Virus record (IMG/VR): IMGVR_UViG_3300030012_001772
Span: 1 to 37,327 of that record
Reading direction: 5' to 3' (one strand)
Source of the DNA: a virus
Length of the DNA: 37,327 bases
Below the pieces are notes generated by a model. The model did no database searches. It was not told the origin of the DNA and was given only the letters and a program-made list of their open reading frames with translations. Shown in pieces: positions 2,882 to 19,610 of the stretch. The position numbers were made by a program, and so were the translations under genes. How positions within the stretch are numbered: the stretch's first letter is position 1; each line of letters begins with the position of its first letter.

Positions 2882-4486
2882 ATGAATATATTGTCATTCC
2901 ACATTGGACATGATGGAAGTGTAACTATTTTACAAGGAGATGAAATAGTAATACACCATCAGCTTGATAGATTTAACGGACTCAAACATCAATTTTACCC
3001 AACCATAGACTTATTCGATAAAATTAAAAGTTTAAAAATAAAATTTGATAAAGTCATTGTTACTAGTATGTCTGAAGGTAACAGATTTCCAATAACATAT
3101 TTTTTATGCAAATATTTAAATATAGATCAATCTAAAATTATTACAATTAACCAAAACGAACACCATTTATTTCACGCTATTTGTGCTAGACATTTTTTTG
3201 ATTATCCTAAAAACGCTGTATATTTTATTGCTGATGGTGATGGTGGAGATAAACCCATACATAATAAAAACAATCAATTTTTAAATGGGGTTACAGGTTC
3301 TGAATGTGAAAGTATTTATGATGAAAAATTAAATTCTATATTTAAATATTATGTTACAGATAGACAGATAAATTTGATTACTGACAAATTTTCAATAACA
3401 AGAAACCTTTCATTAGGTAAGGCTTATCAAAAATTAGTATATGAATTAGGTCTAAATGCACATGAAGAAGGAAAAGCTATGGCTTTATCTTCATACGGTA
3501 AGTTTAGTAATGACATTGCCAACAAGTTAGTTTTTGACAGTAATTGGAATCTTAATTGGATGAGCAATATTGAAGAGAATTGGGAACCCTCGAATTATTT
3601 TAACAGGTATATGTTAAATCCAAGTGTTAATCACACAGCAAAAGATTCTAAATCTTTAGACTTTGTAAAAACTTTCCAAATTGTCTTTCAGCTTTTAGCA
3701 TTACAAAAAATTAAAAAAATAAATAATAAATATGATACATTAGTTCTATCAGGGGGCTGTGCTCAAAATGTTCTTAATAATACATTTTTAAAAGAAGAAT
3801 TAAAAAAGAATATTTTAGCAGATCCTTTCAATGGTGACTTTGGTATATCTTTAGGCTCTGCTTTGCATTATACAAATGTAAAAGTAAAACCATTAAAACA
3901 CATTTGTTCTGGTTTTAGTCCCAAATTATCTCTAGAAAAATTTAAAAGTAAAAATGTAACACCTCAAGAGGTTGCAGAAATTTTAATTAAAGAACCTATT
4001 GCTATATTTAGTGGTAAATCCGAACAAGGTCAAAGGGGATTAGGATTTAGATCATTATTAGGTAATCCATTAGATGAAAAAATATTACAAAAAATCAATG
4101 ACATAAAAAAAAGAGAATGGTATAGACCTTTTGCTTGTACTGTTTTAGAAGAAAATGCAGGAGAATTATTTGAGTTGGAGCCTAATCAAACTTCCCCTTA
4201 TATGATGTTTGTTTTTAAATGTAAGGATAAGAGGCTCAAAAATGTGTGTTCTGTAGATAATTATAGTAGAATTCAAACTTTAAACAGAAAATTTCATAGT
4301 AAATATTATGATTTAATAACTGCGTTTAATCGACTTACTAAATTACCAGCCGTACTTAACACTTCACTTAATTTACCAGGTAGAGTAATATGTGAAGATA
4401 CAAATGATTTGTATTTTATAATGAATAATAGTTCATTAAAATATTGTTATCTAAGTGACGAAAATAAATTATTATGGAAAATGTAA
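2882..4486 (+). CDS. NodU/CmcH/TobZ-family carbamoyltransferase
   Basis: Enzymes of this family move a carbamoyl group from carbamoyl phosphate, through carbamoyl-AMP, to a hydroxyl of a sugar or similar acceptor. The 534 aa match the usual length of 500-600. The Kae1-like N-terminal part shows GHDGS (9-13), HHLFHA (94-99), an Asp/Gly-rich turn (118-123), EGKAMALSSYG (197-207) and SGGCAQN (290-296). The C-terminal part shows GQRGLGFRS (383-391, where relatives usually read GPRALGxRS), REWYRPFA (411-418) and NTSLNLPG (493-500). It looks intact. The gene is visibly more AT-rich than the virion genes around it and may have its own promoter, as expected for a cargo gene. The acceptor is unknown. 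Confidence 0.85.
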   Translation: MNILSFHIGHDGSVTILQGDEIVIHHQLDRFNGLKHQFYPTIDLFDKIKSLKIKFDKVIVTSMSEGNRFPITYFLCKYLNIDQSKIITINQNEHHLFHAICARHFFDYPKNAVYFIADGDGGDKPIHNKNNQFLNGVTGSECESIYDEKLNSIFKYYVTDRQINLITDKFSITRNLSLGKAYQKLVYELGLNAHEEGKAMALSSYGKFSNDIANKLVFDSNWNLNWMSNIEENWEPSNYFNRYMLNPSVNHTAKDSKSLDFVKTFQIVFQLLALQKIKKINNKYDTLVLSGGCAQNVLNNTFLKEELKKNILADPFNGDFGISLGSALHYTNVKVKPLKHICSGFSPKLSLEKFKSKNVTPQEVAEILIKEPIAIFSGKSEQGQRGLGFRSLLGNPLDEKILQKINDIKKREWYRPFACTVLEENAGELFELEPNQTSPYMMFVFKCKDKRLKNVCSVDNYSRIQTLNRKFHSKYYDLITAFNRLTKLPAVLNTSLNLPGRVICEDTNDLYFIMNNSSLKYCYLSDENKLLWKM

Positions 4487-7990: not shown

Positions 7991-8430
7991 TGGCTAAATA
8001 CGCAAACGGAACTAGATCAAAAGCAATATCTGATAGAAGTGGTCAAGCATTTCCATATCAAGAAATGGTTACTGAGTGGAACGGATCTTTTGTTCATATA
8101 TCTGAATTTGAAGAAAAGCATCCTCAAATAAGAAGAAAGAGAAATGTTGCTGATGCAATAGCGTTACAAAAAGTAAGACCAATGAGATTTCAACAACCCA
8201 AAACTGTAGCTTCTAATGATGTTACATTAGCTGATTCAGGAGGCACTTCTGTAGGAGTAGCTAATTTAACTTTACCTGGAGACTTTGCTTTTGAAACTTT
8301 TGAAACAGTGGTTACTAGCAATGGGATAACAACATCTTTACAAACTATGCAACCAAGAGATCCTTCTTTACAGAATAGAAGAAGAGAAGCTTCAGCTCGA
8401 GTAGGATCTGTAACAGTGAGTATATCATAA
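7990..8430 (+). CDS. Virion-associated protein resembling a zinc-ribbon family but lacking the Cys
   Basis: This 146-aa protein matches the layout of a phage family that begins with a CxxCG...YP and a later CxxC zinc ribbon followed by DHPQ. Here the first pair is Ser14/Ser17 (ISDRSGQAFPY), the second Cys pair is also gone, and KHPQ remains at 43-46. The structural role next to the adaptor genes is inferred from position. Start and stop overlap both neighbours as TAATG. Confidence 0.55.
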   Translation: MAKYANGTRSKAISDRSGQAFPYQEMVTEWNGSFVHISEFEEKHPQIRRKRNVADAIALQKVRPMRFQQPKTVASNDVTLADSGGTSVGVANLTLPGDFAFETFETVVTSNGITTSLQTMQPRDPSLQNRRREASARVGSVTVSIS

Positions 8431-9083
8431 TGGCAATAACTTATTCAGCATTTTTAACACAAGTAAGAAACTACACAGAAGTAGATAGTAATGTATTGAG
8501 TGATACTCTGCTAGATCAGTTTATAAGAAACACAGAGTTAGATATAGCTGGTCAAGTTGATTACGATGATTTGAGAAAATATGCAAACTCTCAGACAACA
8601 AGTGGAAACAGGTATGTTTCTATGCCTGCTGATGCATTAATATTAAGATCTGTTCAAATTATTAGTTCTAATGTGAGGGACTTTTTAGAAAAAAGAGATA
8701 CTAGTTTTATATCTGAATTTTCACCAAATGATACAGTAACAGGAACACCAAAATATTATGCTAATTGGGACGAAACAAATATATTACTAGCACCAACTCC
8801 TAATGCAGCTTTTGATATACAAATTAACTACATCAAAGACCCACCACATTTTGATAGCTCAACAAATACATATCTATCCCAGCATCATGAGGCGATGCTT
8901 TTATATGGAGTATTGAAAGAAGCTTTTTCATTTTTAAAAGGACCTGAAGATCTATACAAATTGTATTCTGACAGGTATAATCAAAGCATACAAGCTTTTG
9001 GTCTACAACAAATGGGTAGACGAAGAAGAGGAGAATACGACAGTGGAGTTCCTCGAATTAAAATACCTTCACCGTCACCATAA
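8430..9083 (+). CDS. Putative head-tail adaptor (SU10-type adaptor-like)
   Basis: This 217-aa protein has the common order of adaptor proteins: an N-terminal helix with FLTQVRNYTEVDSNVLSD, a helix with DQFIRNTELDIAG, a beta-rich centre with PKYYANW, and a C-terminal helical part with YLSQHHEAMLLYGVLKEAF. I recall this from phage adaptor families such as that of Vibrio phage SU10. It would form part of the connector between portal and tail. No Shine-Dalgarno sequence is needed because it starts by TAATG coupling. Confidence 0.6.
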   Translation: MAITYSAFLTQVRNYTEVDSNVLSDTLLDQFIRNTELDIAGQVDYDDLRKYANSQTTSGNRYVSMPADALILRSVQIISSNVRDFLEKRDTSFISEFSPNDTVTGTPKYYANWDETNILLAPTPNAAFDIQINYIKDPPHFDSSTNTYLSQHHEAMLLYGVLKEAFSFLKGPEDLYKLYSDRYNQSIQAFGLQQMGRRRRGEYDSGVPRIKIPSPSP

Positions 9084-9098
9084 ATTTAAGGAGATAAA

Positions 9099-9536
9099 AT
9101 GGCAATAACAACTAACGCAATATGTAATTCTTTTAAAAAAGAATTATTAGAAGCGACTCATAATTTTAGTAACCCAGGTGGTAACAGTTTCAAACTAGCT
9201 TTGTACGGAACACCTGCTACGCTAGGAAAATCAACGACATCTTTTACAACTGGAGGACAAGTAACTTCACCATCAGGTGGATACTCCTCAGGTGGTAAAG
9301 CACTTGTAAACACAGGAACATCTTTAGCTACTAACACGGCTATCACAGATTTTTCTGATTTATCATTTGTTGGTGTAACAATCACAGCAAGAGGTGCTTT
9401 GATTTACAATGACACTAACGGTGATAAAGCTGTAGCTGTATTAGATTTTGGCGGTGAGAAAACTGCATCTGCAGGAACTTTTACAATTCAGTTTCCAGCA
9501 TTTACAACGAGCGCAGCAATATTGAGAATCGCATAA
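9099..9536 (+). CDS. Putative tail/virion structural protein
   Basis: This 145-aa protein starts MAITTNAICNSFKKELLEAT and has a beta-rich body with FKLALYGTPATLG, ITARGALIYND and VAVLDFGGEKTASAGTFT. I recognise the pattern from small virion proteins in marine tailed phages. A strong AAGGAG site precedes the ATG, and the intergenic gap on each side is short, so it can be translated independently at a high level. Exact place in the tail is unknown. Confidence 0.6.
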   Translation: MAITTNAICNSFKKELLEATHNFSNPGGNSFKLALYGTPATLGKSTTSFTTGGQVTSPSGGYSSGGKALVNTGTSLATNTAITDFSDLSFVGVTITARGALIYNDTNGDKAVAVLDFGGEKTASAGTFTIQFPAFTTSAAILRIA

Positions 9537-9556: not shown

Positions 9557-10837
9557 ATGGCAGAATTAACTTATACAGTTACCGTAGCATCGGGTAGCCT
9601 CTACGGTGGAGGCGCTGGCAATGTTTTCTATTTAGACGGTGCCAGAAATTCTACTGGTCCAGGAACAGTATCATGGGTTAACGGTGGTACTTTACGATTT
9701 GAACAAAGTGATGCATCAAACGACAATCACCCTTTAGTATTTTCTACAACAACAGGAACTGGTGGAATTATTTCATCAGGCATAACTTACTATTTAGATG
9801 GTGCAAGTAACCAAGCAGGGTACACTAACACTACAACCTTCAATGCAGCCACAACAAGATATGTTGAAGTAACTCCTTCTTCTGAAACAGATTTTTATTA
9901 CCTTTGTTATGTTCATGGTATTGGCATGGGAGGTATTTTTGATATTACTCAAAAAACTTGGGGCGCACAAAGTTGGGGTACAGGAGTTTGGAGTGATCAA
10001 TCCTCGACAGCTGCTGCTGTTACAGGATCAGCATTAACCTTATCACAAGGAGATGCTCAAGGTGTTTCTGTTAATGGATGGGGTAGAGCTGAGTGGGGTT
10101 CAGGAGCTTGGGGTATAACTGGATCTGTTTTAGCAGAAGGTCAATCTTTATCTTCAAGTTTAGGAACAATAACTGTAGATGCTAAAGTTGAAATCGGTTG
10201 GGGCCGAGGTGGTTGGGGTAACAGAGCTTGGGGAGAAACATATTCTGTTTTACCAGCAGGACAACAAGCAACTTTAACACAAGGTAGTGTAACACCAGTA
10301 GTTGATCATACTGTTCAAGTTTCTGGATTAGATTTATTAACAATTACACAAGGTGTAAATTCAATTCAAATCGATGGTAATGTCACTGTGTTTGTTGGTG
10401 AAGACGCTTTACAATCTTCAATAGGAACACTAGCAAGCGTTACTGGAGATGGATTTACAGGTGTTGTATCAGGTCAATCTGTAACCTCTTCAGTTGGTCA
10501 AGTTATTCCTGCACCTAAAATTCCAGTAGATGTGACTGGTATTTCAATGTCCTTAACTTTGGGATCAATCACATTAGTTCAAACCACTGTTGAGAGCGTT
10601 ACAACAGCAGGCTTATTAACTGGATCGATAGGATCTATTACTCCGATATCAGGTTATGATGTAACAGGACAAGCTTTAGCTAGCTCACTTGGGTCAGTAA
10701 CAGTAAATGGTGCTGCAAATATTACTGTTTCTGGTATAGGGTTGACAGCAAATATTGGCTCGGTTAATGTAACCGCATGGAGCGAGATCGACCCTGGTGT
10801 AAATAATGTTTGGACTGAGGTTGATAGAGCAGCTTAA
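9557..10837 (+). CDS. Tail protein with N-terminal cupredoxin-like domain and WG repeats
   Basis: The first ~130 of 426 residues look like a beta-sandwich with the residues of a type-1 copper site: His58 in NHPL, then Cys117, His120 and Met124 in YYLCYVHGIGM. Plastocyanin-like proteins use His plus Cys-x2-His-x4-Met, very close to this Cys-x2-His-x3-Met. After it come three Trp-Gly-rich segments (about 134-145, 174-186, 218-229) and a series of Thr/Ser/Val-rich repeats containing SSLGTITV or SSVGQV. AGGAGGGAG (9540-9548) drives its start. It sits just before the tail-fibre gene. Whether copper is bound is not shown. Confidence 0.6.
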   Translation: MAELTYTVTVASGSLYGGGAGNVFYLDGARNSTGPGTVSWVNGGTLRFEQSDASNDNHPLVFSTTTGTGGIISSGITYYLDGASNQAGYTNTTTFNAATTRYVEVTPSSETDFYYLCYVHGIGMGGIFDITQKTWGAQSWGTGVWSDQSSTAAAVTGSALTLSQGDAQGVSVNGWGRAEWGSGAWGITGSVLAEGQSLSSSLGTITVDAKVEIGWGRGGWGNRAWGETYSVLPAGQQATLTQGSVTPVVDHTVQVSGLDLLTITQGVNSIQIDGNVTVFVGEDALQSSIGTLASVTGDGFTGVVSGQSVTSSVGQVIPAPKIPVDVTGISMSLTLGSITLVQTTVESVTTAGLLTGSIGSITPISGYDVTGQALASSLGSVTVNGAANITVSGIGLTANIGSVNVTAWSEIDPGVNNVWTEVDRAA

Positions 10838-10858: not shown

Positions 10859-12238
10859 ATGGCATCAAGTTATTCTACAGATCTAAAACTCGAATTGATG
10901 GTAACTGGCGAAAACGCTGGTACATGGGGTGATAAAACAAATACAAATTTAAATTTAATTCAACAAGCCGTAGCAGGTTTTGAACAAGTTACACTATCAA
11001 GTGGTGGAACTTTAGCGTTAGTAATGTCTAACGCTTCTTTATCAAACGCAAGAAACATGGTAATCAAATTTGCAACTGCATCAATTGCAGCCAGCACAGT
11101 TTGTACAATACCTGACAGTATTGAAAAATTTTATATCTTTGATTGCACAGGTTTAACAAACCCATCTAATTTAACAATTAAAACAGCTTCAGGAACAGGT
11201 TTCTCACCTGACAGAGCGGCAATCTTTGCAGCCTACGCTGATGGAACAAACCTTAAAGAAATATCTTTAGATACTCTAGGCGGAACTATTGGAACATTAC
11301 AAGTAGCAGACAACACTATAACTGCAGCAAAAATTTCAAACAACGCTGTAACAACTGCAAAAATTTTACAATCAAATGTTACAACTACTAAACTTGCAGC
11401 AAATGCAATTACAACTAATCAAATTACACAATCAAATGTGACATTAAACAAAATGGCTCCTAACTCTGTAGGACCAGCGCAATTACAATCAACAGCCGTA
11501 ACAGCTGGATCTTACACAACAGCTAACATTACAGTTGATGAAGATGGAAGATTGACTGCAGCTTCAACAGGATCTGCTGGCTCAAACGACATGGTTAGAA
11601 CTTTTTTTGCTGAAGGACCAAGCAGTGATACTTACACTGCACAACCAGGGACAGAAAAAATTTTGGTTTATATGTGTGGTGGAGCTGGTGGCGGTGGAGT
11701 CGGGCCAGGATCATATGCAAAAGGACCAGGAGGAAATGGTGGAATCGGAATATTTACTGCTCCAATAACTTCTCCAGCACCTTCACCTTTTACTGCACCT
11801 TATTCAATGGGAGCAGGCGGTGGCGGTCAAGGTAATCAATCAATGGTTTATTCAGGACAAGCAGGATCAGATTCTACATTTGGCAACCCAGCAACAATGA
11901 CTTGTACTGGAGGCGGAGGTGCGTCTTCTGTTCCAGCACCCAATCATCCTCCAACAAACCAACAAGGTTATGCAAGAGGTGGAACTGGTGGTACTGCGAG
12001 TGGTCCAGCATTGTTATTAAATTTATCACAACCAACTGGATTTCCAGGAAACTTAGAAAACAGAACAAATGCAGCTGTAGCTCCATTCAAAGCTCTTTTC
12101 GTAGCTGACCCTAATGCTCCATCAAATTCAGCTGAGTTTGGTGTTTATGGAGTGGGTGGTAATCAGACAGGTCCAAATATGTCTTCTAACGATGGTCGTC
12201 CAGGTGCAATTTTAATATTTGAGGATAAATTAAGCTAA
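10859..12238 (+). CDS. Tail fibre protein with decapeptide repeats and Gly-rich tip
   Basis: The N-terminal ~145 of 459 residues, starting with SSYSTDLKLELMVTGENAGT, look like a phage tail-fibre attachment domain. Six ten-residue repeats follow at 151-210, built on x-N-x-[VI]-T-x-x-K-[IL], as in trimeric fibre shafts. The C-terminal part (about 250-459) is Gly-rich with CGGAGGGGVGPG and MGAGGGGQG, like the Gly-rich tips of phage adhesins. It probably contacts the host surface. AGGAG precedes the start and the next gene is coupled by TAATG. Confidence 0.72.
   Translation: MASSYSTDLKLELMVTGENAGTWGDKTNTNLNLIQQAVAGFEQVTLSSGGTLALVMSNASLSNARNMVIKFATASIAASTVCTIPDSIEKFYIFDCTGLTNPSNLTIKTASGTGFSPDRAAIFAAYADGTNLKEISLDTLGGTIGTLQVADNTITAAKISNNAVTTAKILQSNVTTTKLAANAITTNQITQSNVTLNKMAPNSVGPAQLQSTAVTAGSYTTANITVDEDGRLTAASTGSAGSNDMVRTFFAEGPSSDTYTAQPGTEKILVYMCGGAGGGGVGPGSYAKGPGGNGGIGIFTAPITSPAPSPFTAPYSMGAGGGGQGNQSMVYSGQAGSDSTFGNPATMTCTGGGGASSVPAPNHPPTNQQGYARGGTGGTASGPALLLNLSQPTGFPGNLENRTNAAVAPFKALFVADPNAPSNSAEFGVYGVGGNQTGPNMSSNDGRPGAILIFEDKLS
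11309..11488 (+). repeat. Six decapeptide-coding repeats in the tail fibre shaft
   Basis: Six in-frame 30-bp units encode ten-residue blocks such as DNTITAAKIS, NNAVTTAKIL, QSNVTTTKLA and QSNVTLNKMA. QSNVT occurs twice, two units apart. Nucleotide identity is moderate, so these are old repeats at the protein level. Confidence 0.75.
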
Positions 12239-12766: not shown

Positions 12767-13342
12767 ATGTCTTTAGAAAAATATATTAAAGTATATCCAG
12801 CAATACCTGATCCAACAACCATTAGTAAGTTTATACAATATTTAAATAAAACTTTTGATGACAAAAAATTTGTTTCGGGATCTATAGCTGGTGGTGTTAA
12901 AAAACCAGATGTTGTAGATAAAAAAGTTAGGGATGTTGATATTTTAGGATTAGACTCATTAAATGATTCTTTAAGTAATGTGCATTGGTTTAATTATATA
13001 AACTATTTAATTGTTCAACAAATGTCTAATTATATCAGAGAGTTTCCAGATATTCGTGAAGCAGGTATTATGGACATGCAGGCTTTAAGATATGGAATAG
13101 GAGGTCATTATAAATTTCATGTTGATGATGGCCCAACATTCAATAGAAAATATAGTTGTATTCTAATGCTTAATAATGATTTTGAAGGTGGAAATTTATG
13201 CTTCAATTTAGATGGAAAGATTAAGAAAATGGAAACTAAACCAGGACATGTAGTTATTTGGCCAAGTAATTTTATGTTTCCTCATGCGGTTGAGCCATTA
13301 ACTAAAGGAGTGAGATATTCAGTAGTATCATGGATGCGTTAA
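12767..13342 (+). CDS. 2-oxoglutarate/Fe(II)-dependent oxygenase (prolyl 4-hydroxylase-like)
   Basis: This 191-aa protein shows the double-stranded beta-helix core of non-heme iron oxygenases: His118-x-Asp120 in KFHVDDG, distal His173 in FPHAVEPLT and Arg183 in GVRYSVVSW, the usual 2-oxoglutarate anchor. NNDFEGGNLCF and KPGHVVIWPS are also typical. Such enzymes hydroxylate proteins, small molecules or nucleic acids using O2 and 2-oxoglutarate. All key residues are present, so it is probably active. Substrate unknown. It overlaps the second oxygenase by 13 nt. Confidence 0.85.
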   Translation: MSLEKYIKVYPAIPDPTTISKFIQYLNKTFDDKKFVSGSIAGGVKKPDVVDKKVRDVDILGLDSLNDSLSNVHWFNYINYLIVQQMSNYIREFPDIREAGIMDMQALRYGIGGHYKFHVDDGPTFNRKYSCILMLNNDFEGGNLCFNLDGKIKKMETKPGHVVIWPSNFMFPHAVEPLTKGVRYSVVSWMR

Positions 13343-13875
13343 TTAACGGATATAAGCATATTAAAAATTTTCTTACAAAAGAGGAAATAGATTTATTAAC
13401 TCATTATGCAAGATTAAAACACAGAACTAATTATACTAGTTTTGATACTGAGCAAAGTGATCAAGGCGATACTATGTTTTATGGTGATCCTGTAACTGAT
13501 TCATTATTGATTACTAAAAAAGATTTAATGGAAAAAGAAACAAATTTAAAATTACTTCCTACTTATACCTTTTGGAGAATGTATACTTATGGAGCAGACT
13601 TAAAAAAACATAAAGATAGACCAGCATGTGAATATAGTGTAACTGTTAAAATAAATTCTGATGGTATTAAATGGCCTATTTACATGGAGGGTGCAGAAAT
13701 AGAGTTAGAAAATGGAGACGCTGTTATTTATAAAGGATGTGATTTAGCACATTGGAGACATAATTTTCAAGGTGATTGGCACGCACAAGTCTTTTTACAT
13801 TATGTAAATGCAGACGGCCCTCATAAAGAATGGTTCAAAGATAAAAGAATATTATTAGGAACAACAAAAGGTTAA
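13330..13875 (+). CDS. Second 2-oxoglutarate/Fe(II) oxygenase-like protein
   Basis: This 181-aa protein has LPTYTFWRMYTYGADLKKHK with His94-x-Asp96 followed by RPACEYSVTV, the usual start of the iron site in this fold. A distal His is present at 141 or 144 in GCDLAHWRHNF. A clear Arg equivalent for 2-oxoglutarate is not obvious. It shares little sequence with the neighbouring oxygenase, so this is not a simple tandem duplication. The pair is translationally coupled. Substrate unknown. Confidence 0.72.
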   Translation: MDALINGYKHIKNFLTKEEIDLLTHYARLKHRTNYTSFDTEQSDQGDTMFYGDPVTDSLLITKKDLMEKETNLKLLPTYTFWRMYTYGADLKKHKDRPACEYSVTVKINSDGIKWPIYMEGAEIELENGDAVIYKGCDLAHWRHNFQGDWHAQVFLHYVNADGPHKEWFKDKRILLGTTKG

Positions 13876-14109
13876 ATGAAAATAGAACAAGATAATAAAA
13901 CAGGCGGAGCAGATATAGTATTTACTTGGAGAGAAGTATGGATAATTATTAAATACAGAAGATTAAGATTTGACCAAGCAAGTTTCAAAGCTTTTAGTGG
14001 CAAACTTTTAAAATGTATAATGGATTGGAATTTAAACTTTGATGTTCCACTTGTTAAACAAGTAGAAGAAAAAGATATTGTGGGTCCAGATGCTAAAACA
14101 AATAAATAA
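13876..14109 (+). CDS. Conserved hypothetical small protein
   Basis: The ATG follows the oxygenase stop with no gap. This 77-aa protein contains GGADIVFTWREVWIIIKYRR and a helical remainder. I recall relatives in marine phages placed near oxygenase or tail genes, without known function. The hydrophobic stretch is broken by charged residues, so a membrane anchor is unlikely. Confidence 0.5.
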   Translation: MKIEQDNKTGGADIVFTWREVWIIIKYRRLRFDQASFKAFSGKLLKCIMDWNLNFDVPLVKQVEEKDIVGPDAKTNK

Positions 14110-14137
14110 AATTATACAAAAAAAGATAGAGCGAGAA

Positions 14138-14626
14138 ATGTTTCTTCATGAGGTAACTCTGGATGTTGACTCAGATTATTTCATACAAGAAATAGAAAAA
14201 AAATTAGCAGAGAAAAACTTAAGTTATAGAACTAATGTAGAAGGCAAAATGACTACATGGAATGCATTTGTAGATAACCCTAATTTTATACAAGTGCTTA
14301 AATCTGGATTAGATGCTCTAACAAACCATATAGAATACGAGCATGTATATTTAGCAGATGCTTGGGGTATAAAGATTGATAAAAATGATTACACAAAATT
14401 ACATGATCATGCATCGTCTATGTATTCAGGTATATTGTATTTAAATGATGTAGATCAAAAATTAGTATTTCCTGAGTTAAATATGAGTATAACTCCTAGA
14501 AAAGGAACTTTTATAAGTTTTTCAGCTTGGTTAAAACATAAGGCAGATCCAAATCAAGGGGAAACAAAATATGCAATTCCTTTTAATCTTAACCCCGCAC
14601 AGCACAAATCTTTCAAGCCTGATTAA
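14138..14626 (+). CDS. Third 2-oxoglutarate/Fe(II) oxygenase-like protein
   Basis: The start is set at ATG 14138, giving 162 aa; in-frame ATGs at 14078 and 14090 would overlap the previous gene. The iron-site pattern is His89-Asp90-His91 (KLHDHASSMYSGILYLND) with distal His134 in SAWLKHKADPNQ. The usual Arg in the last strand appears as Lys144 (GETKYAIPFNL). This resembles a phage oxygenase group with HxH and a WLxH motif. The Lys change could alter co-substrate use. Substrate unknown. Confidence 0.7.
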   Translation: MFLHEVTLDVDSDYFIQEIEKKLAEKNLSYRTNVEGKMTTWNAFVDNPNFIQVLKSGLDALTNHIEYEHVYLADAWGIKIDKNDYTKLHDHASSMYSGILYLNDVDQKLVFPELNMSITPRKGTFISFSAWLKHKADPNQGETKYAIPFNLNPAQHKSFKPD

Positions 14627-17505: not shown

Positions 17506-17682
17506 ATGGCAATTTTACAAAAAATTAAATGTGATACTAAAACTATTTATAGAAGTATCAAAACAGGTGAAAGATACGAAACAGAAGAAGCCTTTTTAAA
17601 ACAACACCCAAAAGAAGACATGGCAACAGATGTAGAAGTACAAGTTCCTGATCTTCCTATATTTAGTAAGACACAAAAATGA
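17506..17682 (+). CDS. 58-aa hypothetical protein
   Basis: The frame starts MAILQKIKCDTKTIYRSIKT and continues with charged, helical sequence to FSKTQK. It ends by ATGA overlap with the glycosyltransferase start (17679-17682), which supports it being real. No family recognised. It probably heads the glycosyltransferase transcription unit. Confidence 0.5.
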   Translation: MAILQKIKCDTKTIYRSIKTGERYETEEAFLKQHPKEDMATDVEVQVPDLPIFSKTQK

Positions 17683-18614
17683 AACCTTTAGGCGGAACAG
17701 AACTACAACATGATTTTTTAGAGCAATATGTTTCTAAAGATTTGTTAGATAAATTTCAAATATGTACTTCAGTACCAGGCAAAGTGCCTTTGTCAAAAGA
17801 TAAAATAAATATACTTTGGCAAAAGATGGCACCTGACCAACCACATTTTCAAGATTTTTTTAGGAGTGAAGAGAAGATAAATCAATACGATTACTATGTA
17901 TTTAATAGCCATTGGAACTACGAGCAGTTTAGAAAAACCTTTTCATTACCTGAACATCGTTGCACAGTTATAAAAAACGGAATACCTGATATTGAAAAAA
18001 GAGATCCTGAGCCTAAAAGAGATAAAATAAAATTAATATATCATCCTACTCCTTGGAGAGGGTTATCTGTTTTATTAGGTGCAATGCAATTGATTAACAA
18101 TCCTAATGTAGTTTTAGATGTATATAGTAGCACACAAATTTATGGTGATGATTTTAAAAAAGAAAATGATCACACATATAAAGATTTATATGAGCAAGCT
18201 GAAAAGTTACCTAATGTAAATCTTATTGGATATAAACCTAATAAATATATTTTAGATAATTTGCATACTTATGATGCTTTTATTTACCCAAACATATGGG
18301 AAGAAACATTCTGCATATCTGCTCTTGAAGCATTAGCTTGTGGTTTATATGTAGCGACAACGGACAACGGAGCATTATACGAGACATGCACGGAGTTTCC
18401 TATCTATATTCCTTGTGATAAAAATTGGGAAAATCTTGCACGACAATTTGCTGCTGTCATAGATGGTATAGCTGGACAAATTAATACTGATGGCTGTAGA
18501 AATCATTTAAGATTTCAACAAAACTTTTTTAATCATTTTTACAATTGGAAAACTATAGCTGGTCATTGGACTGGTTTTTTACAGGGAGCACTACAAAATG
18601 CTAAAAGCACTTAA
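17679..18614 (+). CDS. GT-B fold glycosyltransferase (GT4-like)
   Basis: GT4-type enzymes move a sugar from a nucleotide sugar to an acceptor. The 311-aa protein begins almost directly with GGTELQHDF, a usual N-terminal loop motif; the start at 17679 overlaps the previous stop, so little is missing. The C-terminal nucleotide-sugar site is visible as Glu209-x7-Glu217 in EETFCISALEALACG, with TPWRGLSVLLGA at 124-135. It has no membrane segment. It may decorate virion proteins, modify host glycans or modify DNA; sequence does not decide. Confidence 0.82.
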   Translation: MKPLGGTELQHDFLEQYVSKDLLDKFQICTSVPGKVPLSKDKINILWQKMAPDQPHFQDFFRSEEKINQYDYYVFNSHWNYEQFRKTFSLPEHRCTVIKNGIPDIEKRDPEPKRDKIKLIYHPTPWRGLSVLLGAMQLINNPNVVLDVYSSTQIYGDDFKKENDHTYKDLYEQAEKLPNVNLIGYKPNKYILDNLHTYDAFIYPNIWEETFCISALEALACGLYVATTDNGALYETCTEFPIYIPCDKNWENLARQFAAVIDGIAGQINTDGCRNHLRFQQNFFNHFYNWKTIAGHWTGFLQGALQNAKST

Positions 18615-18786
18615 AAAGAGATATGAAGCACAAATAGCGGAAGCTTCTACAACTATAAAAATATATCTTAGTAATTCAGTAGGGATTGGAGAACACCCAC
18701 AACATCTAGACGAAATAGATAAATTACTACAAAACATAGTAGATGCTGAAGAAAAAATTAAATTAATAGATAGGTGGGTTGGTTAA
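18598..18786 (+). CDS. 62-aa conserved helical protein between glycosyltransferases
   Basis: This peptide begins MLKALKKRYEAQIAEASTTI and contains VGIGEHPQHLDEIDKLLQNI, a pattern I recall as a conserved small marine phage protein. It is all helical, and probably coiled-coil forming. It overlaps the glycosyltransferase before it by 17 nt and the next start by TAATG. Function unknown. Confidence 0.6.
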   Translation: MLKALKKRYEAQIAEASTTIKIYLSNSVGIGEHPQHLDEIDKLLQNIVDAEEKIKLIDRWVG

Positions 18787-19610
18787 TGCAAGATCACAGC
18801 AAACCTATATGGTTTGAAAAACCAAAAGCAACCGTTAATGGTAAACCTAAACCTAAAAAATTCTCAATATTCGTAGCAACTCCATGCCACAGTGATGTTT
18901 CTTTGCATTTTTTTCAAGCTTGCTTAGAGTTTCAAAAACAATGTATGAAAAATGATGTGTTGGTTTGTTTTCAAGTAATGAAATCATCTCTAGTTACACA
19001 AGGTAGAAATCTTTGTGTATCAAGTTTTATGGAAACAGATAGTACACATTTATTATTTATTGACTCCGATATTGATTTTGAATCTGCATCTATATTTAAA
19101 ATGATAGCTGCTAAAAAAGATGTTATTTCAGTTCCCTATGCTTTAAAAAGTTTGAATTGGAAACAGGCTTGGGAAAGAATAAAAGAGGGTAAAATTAAAA
19201 ACGAACATGATTTACAATATAAAGCTTTGTATCAATATCCTATGAAGCTACCTAACGAAAAAGAAGTTACAATTGAAAACGGTGTAATAGAGGTAACTCA
19301 CTCTCCTACTGGGTGCATGTTAATTAAAAGAGAAGTCATAGAGAAGATGATTAAGGCTTATCCTGAAAAAGAGATAATACAAAAAACAATTATTAATGGT
19401 AAATTAACTAACAGACCTTTCTTTTATAATCTTTTTGATACTGACTTTGATCCAATAAAAAAGCAATATTTAGGCGAAGATTTTGCCTTCTGTAAGAGAT
19501 GGAGAGATATAGGTGGTAAATGTCATGCGTTAGTCACTGAAAAAATAACTCATGTCGGAGAACATCAGTATAGATCTTCTTTTTGGGATGAGTTGTCAAA
19601 GACCTCCTAA
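18786..19610 (+). CDS. GT-A fold glycosyltransferase (family 2-like)
   Basis: The start is placed at ATG 18786, which overlaps the previous stop as TAATG; an in-frame ATG four codons earlier is less likely. The 274-aa protein has FSIFVATPCHSDV, VTQGRNLCVSSFM and FIDSDIDF (Asp93-Ser-Asp95), the DxD nucleotide-sugar and metal motif. Later, YLGEDFAFCKRWRDIGG matches the acceptor-side ED motif. It lies 172 nt after the GT-B enzyme, so the two probably act in one pathway. No membrane segment. Confidence 0.78.
   Translation: MQDHSKPIWFEKPKATVNGKPKPKKFSIFVATPCHSDVSLHFFQACLEFQKQCMKNDVLVCFQVMKSSLVTQGRNLCVSSFMETDSTHLLFIDSDIDFESASIFKMIAAKKDVISVPYALKSLNWKQAWERIKEGKIKNEHDLQYKALYQYPMKLPNEKEVTIENGVIEVTHSPTGCMLIKREVIEKMIKAYPEKEIIQKTIINGKLTNRPFFYNLFDTDFDPIKKQYLGEDFAFCKRWRDIGGKCHALVTEKITHVGEHQYRSSFWDELSKTS

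Follow-up and report, generated by a model that had tools for sequence, protein, structure and literature searches.

A predicted blue-copper (cupredoxin) domain recurs as a mobile module in tail proteins of marine phages

Copper proteins are known in cells as electron carriers and enzymes, and cupredoxins tolerate either Met or Gln as the axial ligand, Gln being known from stellacyanin. Iron in phage tail fibres has reportedly been treated by Bonnain et al. (2016). The plastocyanin gene petE, where borne by phages, counts among known metabolic genes. Phage Ig-like display domains are mobile, optional beta-sandwich modules that are thought to contact cell surfaces weakly (PMC10385173), and HxH motifs in the T4 tail fibre hold iron, the same having been proposed for marine phages (PMC11705849). 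For a cupredoxin in a virion no report was found in a literature search that left out most subscription journals, and the main text of the paper on HTVC023P-type genomes mentions neither copper nor cupredoxins.

The window analysed here, that is, the whole stretch of DNA of 37,327 bases, is a virus record. One of its ORFs encodes a protein of 426 amino acids without a signal peptide, in which the following features were annotated:

9557..10837, + strand: 426-aa virion (tail-module) protein (ORF; C-terminal comparison with HTVC027P gp68)
9557..9952, + strand: predicted cupredoxin domain, residues 1-132 (AlphaFold2 pLDDT 91.5, pTM 0.86; PDB fold matches; family alignment)
9698..9700, + strand: Phe48, invariant core residue (73-sequence alignment)
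9728..9730, + strand: His58 (NHPL), first proposed copper ligand (invariant; paired by hhalign with the N-terminal ligand His of plastocyanin-type proteins)
9905..9907, + strand: Cys117, proposed copper thiolate ligand (invariant; paired by hhalign with the plastocyanin Cys)
9914..9916, + strand: His120, proposed copper ligand (invariant; paired by hhalign with the second plastocyanin ligand His)
9926..9928, + strand: Met124, proposed as axial ligand and replaced by Gln in the P-RSM6-like subfamily (family alignment and phage set)

In translation the residues read N57-H58-P59-L60 and C117-Y-V-H120-G-I-G-M124, the latter a C-x2-H-x3-M loop, which agrees with the original prediction in all four ligand residues and in their spacing. 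Residues 133-426 are a Gly/Trp/Ser/Thr-rich repeat region. There is a strong case, built on a predicted model and on sequence comparison, that residues 1-132 are a cupredoxin domain carrying the putative type-1 (blue) copper ligand set H58/C117/H120/M124.

The AlphaFold2 model of the domain was built on a 73-row alignment (pLDDT 91.5, pTM 0.86). A strand at residues 111-117 ends at C117 and is followed by a loop (118-120) and another strand (121-131). Comparison of the predicted fold with cupredoxins, as originally proposed, came out in favour of the claim, the PDB fold matches of this good model being mostly cupredoxins: the top Foldseek match is a Nitrosopumilus multicopper oxidase (9cck, E 4.4e-4, probability 1.00), followed by nitrite reductases, plastocyanin (probability 1.00) and laccases, and in the VIA ranking rusticyanin leads (Z 7.7, rmsd 3.2, 106 residues), ahead of nitrite reductase and laccases. 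The VIA matches also include an aspartic peptidase family (SO1698, Z 7.0-7.1). The range aligned by VIA stops seven residues past Met124, and likewise past the axial ligands Met92 in plastocyanin and Met148 in rusticyanin. Strand order, the hhalign register and these aligned ranges would suit ligand side chains that converge on one site. An earlier model, built on 23 near-identical sequences, was of poor quality (pLDDT 72), and its plastocyanin match (Z 4.3) was not taken as proof; a few antibody or Ig rows came with this poor model, and the top 50 rows of the good one contain none. Since the VIA Z values lie below 8, homology is not proven by structure alone and is settled by the sequence evidence.

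Neither the window protein nor its domain gave a Pfam match above cut-off, PF00127 (Copper-bind) included. In PHROGs, phrog_27200 and phrog_30742 match only when the domain is queried alone; a sequence search of the PDB returned chance immunoglobulin matches, and the A2 profile reached azurin (E 0.5) and pseudoazurin (E 1.6) at values that are not significant. In the phage alignment, two members show a weak PF00127 match (best E 0.046). The PF00127 cut-off of 21.2 bits is exceeded by a Woeseiaceae protein (L404, 21.4 bits) and by the protein of L401/L424 (24.0 bits), and the Woeseiaceae members are 50-57% identical to phage members. When aligned to plastocyanin by hhalign, H58, C117 and H120 fall on the plastocyanin ligands, with a probability of 22% for the window-anchored profile and 70% for the profile that includes cellular members. 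The homology to blue-copper proteins is carried by these PF00127-passing cellular members together with the hhalign register. An ORF with a Gln-type copy also encodes, at L258:3096-3419, a second, more classical cupredoxin (CTQHPLMVGNLTVV), a link on the way to ordinary cupredoxins.

Marine bacterial and archaeal assemblies have the domain in proteins that resemble lipoproteins or adhesins and also contain cadherin, Big_9 or DUF4214 domains, and some contigs in those cellular assemblies are phage sequence (L391). In Prochlorococcus and Burkholderiaceae assemblies (L397, L400, L405) it is joined to DUF4214; these are possibly marine bacterial surface proteins with a copper-type site.

Close relatives of the window domain are common among marine viral contigs. 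The best 80 matches comprise 57 distinct sequences, and the four ligand residues are kept in 57/57. Across the 73 aligned domains, which are 22-90% identical to the window, the only invariant columns are Phe48, His58, Cys117 and His120, and the axial position is Met, or Gln in one subfamily (P-RSM6-like). The ligand loops of 210 distinct domains are C-x2-H-x2-M in 118, the x3-M form in 59 and the x2-Q form in 33. Some of the search peptides included ligands, and a subset was therefore defined of 143 distinct domains with at least one ligand-free search peptide; the ligand set H...C-x2-H-x2/3-(M/Q) is kept in 143/143. Ligand conservation as an artefact of ligand-bearing search peptides was rejected on this result and on the phage set obtained by tblastn and HMM. 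Searched by tblastn against phages, the window domain gave no match at E<1e-3; a looser E-value limit returned weak cyanophage matches, which were the entry point to the wider family. The cyanophage domains share FDQSD...HPL...C-x2-H-x2-M at about 30% identity. The profile scan of genome contigs used a 12-row subset of the 73-row alignment.

A second phage set was collected from cultured phage genomes by tblastn and profile search, with no ligand patterns used, and holds 35 copies. All four ligands are intact in 24 of them; in S-BM3 (L452), counted as intact, the C-x2-H-x2-M loop sits past an insertion. Cultured phages with intact sites include P-HM2, P-RSM6, S-B68, HTVC028P and Baldr. The remaining 11/35 are degenerate and have lost the Cys, examples being gp7 second domains, PSS2 gp080 and one tail-fibre type. 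Every Cys-bearing copy (24/24) also holds both His and Met/Gln. Among the 11 Cys-less copies, His120 is missing in 10, Met/Gln in 10 and His58 in 6. This co-loss has a Fisher p of 6e-8 when relatedness is ignored, and of 1.8e-4 for His120 after grouping related copies. Together with the 73-row alignment, the joint loss in phage copies upholds the expectation that the ligands would be conserved or co-vary in marine viral homologues. Because the ligands are invariant in 57 relatives, make up three of the four invariant columns and are retained or lost jointly, the putative ligand pattern of the window domain is beyond chance, and from the same all-or-none conservation it is quite probable that copper occupies the predicted site. 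Some phage copies being ligand-degenerate, not every one would be able to bind copper, and the fold can serve on virions copper-free. Intact and degenerate copies stand alongside each other in the same proteins, which makes them a natural control. Cyanophage PSS2 gp080 (L448, 112 aa) is a stand-alone domain gene annotated as a baseplate wedge subunit, with the three main ligands gone.

The genes flanking the 426-aa protein are:

8430..9083, + strand: SU10-type adaptor protein, a member of the conserved cassette (Pfam SU10_adaptor, E 3.1e-21)
9099..9536, + strand: phrog_644 protein, the gene upstream in the conserved cassette (PHROGs match; order shared by relatives)
10859..12238, + strand: tail-fibre protein encoded downstream, Gly-rich in its C-terminal part (phrog_31104, phrog_863, phrog_28766; Gly_rich_2)

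The gene order in the window is phrog_12985 protein, 7990 protein, SU10 adaptor, phrog_644 protein, 9557 protein and tail fibre, and it recurs among relatives. With the adaptor upstream and the tail fibre downstream, the claimed position in a tail module beside the tail fibre is supported. The DNA polymerase and adaptor of the window are closest to those of Pelagibacter phage HTVC023P (61% and 68% identity), so a SAR11-type host is likely. Residues ~133-426 are orthologous to gp68 of Pelagibacter phage HTVC027P (31% identity over 282 aa), a protein without the N-terminal cupredoxin domain. Related phages carry the domain in one of three places: N-terminally on the 7292 homologue (79 ORFs), C-terminally on the 7990 homologue (44) or N-terminally on the 9557 homologue (166), counts that include overlapping copies of the same contigs. 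One contig (L073) has two copies, a C-terminal one on the 7990 homologue with intact ligands (L073:4001-4384) and one of the 9557 type. Cyanophage genomes give up to four domain matches each, in gp7-type baseplate wedge, connector and tail-fibre proteins. The pelagiphages HTVC028P and Baldr carry the domain in tail fibres, and a Pelagibacteraceae single-cell assembly holds a T7-type tail fibre that bears it. The predicted cupredoxin domain is a mobile module of tails, with grafts on three adjacent genes of the tail region. A metabolic plastocyanin gene was rejected as an explanation, given the lack of a signal peptide and the fusion to a virion protein.

Elsewhere in the window, the tail-fibre gene is followed by three consecutive ORFs (12767, 13330 and 14078, spanning 12767-14626) whose products look by eye like 2OG-Fe(II) oxygenase/prolyl-hydroxylase-type proteins; in the matching region HTVC027P has a single annotated 2OG-Fe(II) oxygenase, gp73. 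Positions 2882-4486 encode a NodU/Nol-like carbamoyltransferase (phrog_1601, E 3.9e-94), an auxiliary gene adjoining virion genes, and 17679-19610 hold a glycosyltransferase (phrog_2170) and then a phrog_1574 protein.

Within the domain, comparison of the window with three near relatives (L008, L009, L012) delimits one further feature:

9625..9922, + strand: divergent-allele patch with 65 substitutions in L008, L009 and L012 (comparison with the window)

Most 60-base steps on both sides of the patch are 95-100% identical to the window. The patch holds 26 synonymous and 18 replacement codons, and the four ligands are identical in both alleles. The variability of the domain peaks at residues 67-75. 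Mapped on the adaptor tree, where 8 rows are YLT, the loop allele at residues 71-73 (YLT or IIS) takes 8 changes, and shuffled labels take a mean of 7.6; the allele is thus unlinked to the adaptor tree. The domain has been swapped by local recombination in the window lineage. This fits an exposed domain that exchanges loops while the metal site stays constant; the allele swapping may also be general recombination.

Modular spread and local allele swapping point to surface recognition rather than to stability, redox sensing or a metal receptor. The protein, which lacks a signal sequence, would be made and assembled in the host cytoplasm, and the site would load one copper ion, either from the cell or from sea water following lysis. 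The metal would lock the Cys/His/Met loop and give a stable beta-sandwich that we infer to be exposed on the virion, and the variable loops 67-73 and 84-92 may touch the host envelope weakly, as Ig-like domains do elsewhere. Host-surface recognition by a domain with a metal-locked loop is a role whose chances we consider evenly balanced. The full reading, a virion-displayed domain with an intact type-1 copper site, mobile among marine phages and metal-locked, whose exposed loops contact the host envelope, may equally well prove right or wrong. Towards a wider generalization we lean slightly to the doubtful side: marine tailed phages, including SAR11-phage relatives and cyanomyoviruses, might share a recombining blue-copper module of tail and baseplate, a large unnamed cupredoxin family, with copper-carrying virions and a part in recognition or redox sensing.

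The best surviving alternative, unlikely in our judgement and still to be reckoned with, is that copper, or a metal-free Cys/His/Met core, has no role beyond stabilising a decoration domain of the beta-sandwich type. Phages commonly carry small decoration domains, and the ligand-less gp7 second domains and PSS2 gp080 hold the fold position; however, stabilisation has no need for three invariant ligands amid mostly variable columns, and the swapping of loop alleles suggests an external partner. We think it improbable that the domain is a redox device in which Cu(II)/Cu(I) cycling, on meeting a host reductant or electron carrier, alters the state of the tail or triggers ejection. Type-1 sites evolved for electron transfer and the Met/Gln variation at the axial position would tune the potential, but neither a partner, a fused redox enzyme nor an adjacent haem protein was seen, the cellular relatives stand in adhesin-like or lipoprotein contexts (cadherin, Big_9, DUF4214) and not in oxidoreductases, and the copies occupy several virion positions, some of them site-less.

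More improbable again is a copper counterpart of the Ferrojan horse, in which the tail engages a metal-uptake receptor of the host by way of its bound copper or some other metal. Metal levels are low where SAR11 and cyanobacteria live; yet type-1 sites are buried and bind their metal tightly, receptors that take copper from proteins are not known in these hosts, and the site is lost with the domain retained in 11/35 phage copies. The precedent in its favour is the iron of the T4 tail-fibre HxH motifs and its proposed extension to marine phages (PMC11705849). Chance resemblance, that is, an unrelated beta-sandwich that happens to contain His, Cys, His and Met, could draw on the window protein lacking a Pfam family above cut-off and on VIA Z values below 8, but was rejected as very improbable, being contradicted by ligands that are conserved and lost together, by homologues that exceed the PF00127 cut-off and by PDB fold matches in which cupredoxins dominate.

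Among the possible roles, surface recognition by a metal-locked domain remains the one we prefer. Since the tails of many marine viruses bear the domain, their particles may carry copper. Were copper bound, abundant ocean viruses would amount to a pool of protein-bound copper, and the iron-in-tails hypothesis would gain a copper analogue testable in the cultured phages P-HM2, P-RSM6, S-B68, HTVC028P and Baldr. To find a blue-copper domain as a recurring component of virion tails would be to find the fold in a new use.

Compared with the proteins of PF00127 (plastocyanin, amicyanin, pseudoazurin), the window domain has the same eight-stranded-type beta-sandwich, the same topology and the same order of His, Cys, His and Met, its Cys likewise ends the penultimate strand, and bridging members of the family exceed the Pfam cut-off. 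Unlike those proteins, it has no signal peptide, is one domain of a virion structural protein and carries an extra segment between the first His and the Cys (59 residues in the window). Its C-x2-H-x3-M loop is intermediate in length between those of amicyanin (x2) and plastocyanin (x4), and most phage relatives have x2. The phytocyanins stellacyanin and mavicyanin share an axial Gln with the P-RSM6-like phage subfamily, but they are secreted plant proteins and the window domain has Met. Cyanophage petE is, like the window domain, a blue-copper protein encoded by marine phage, yet it is a metabolic gene of host photosynthesis outside the virion, whereas window-type domains lie inside tail structural proteins. 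Ig-like display domains such as T4 Hoc are also mobile beta-sandwiches on virion proteins, of a different fold family and with no metal site. The HxH motifs of tail fibres likewise place a transition metal in a phage tail, as the proposed copper site would; they bind iron at trimeric fibre tips, whereas the window has a globular domain with a putative Cys/His/Met copper-type site.
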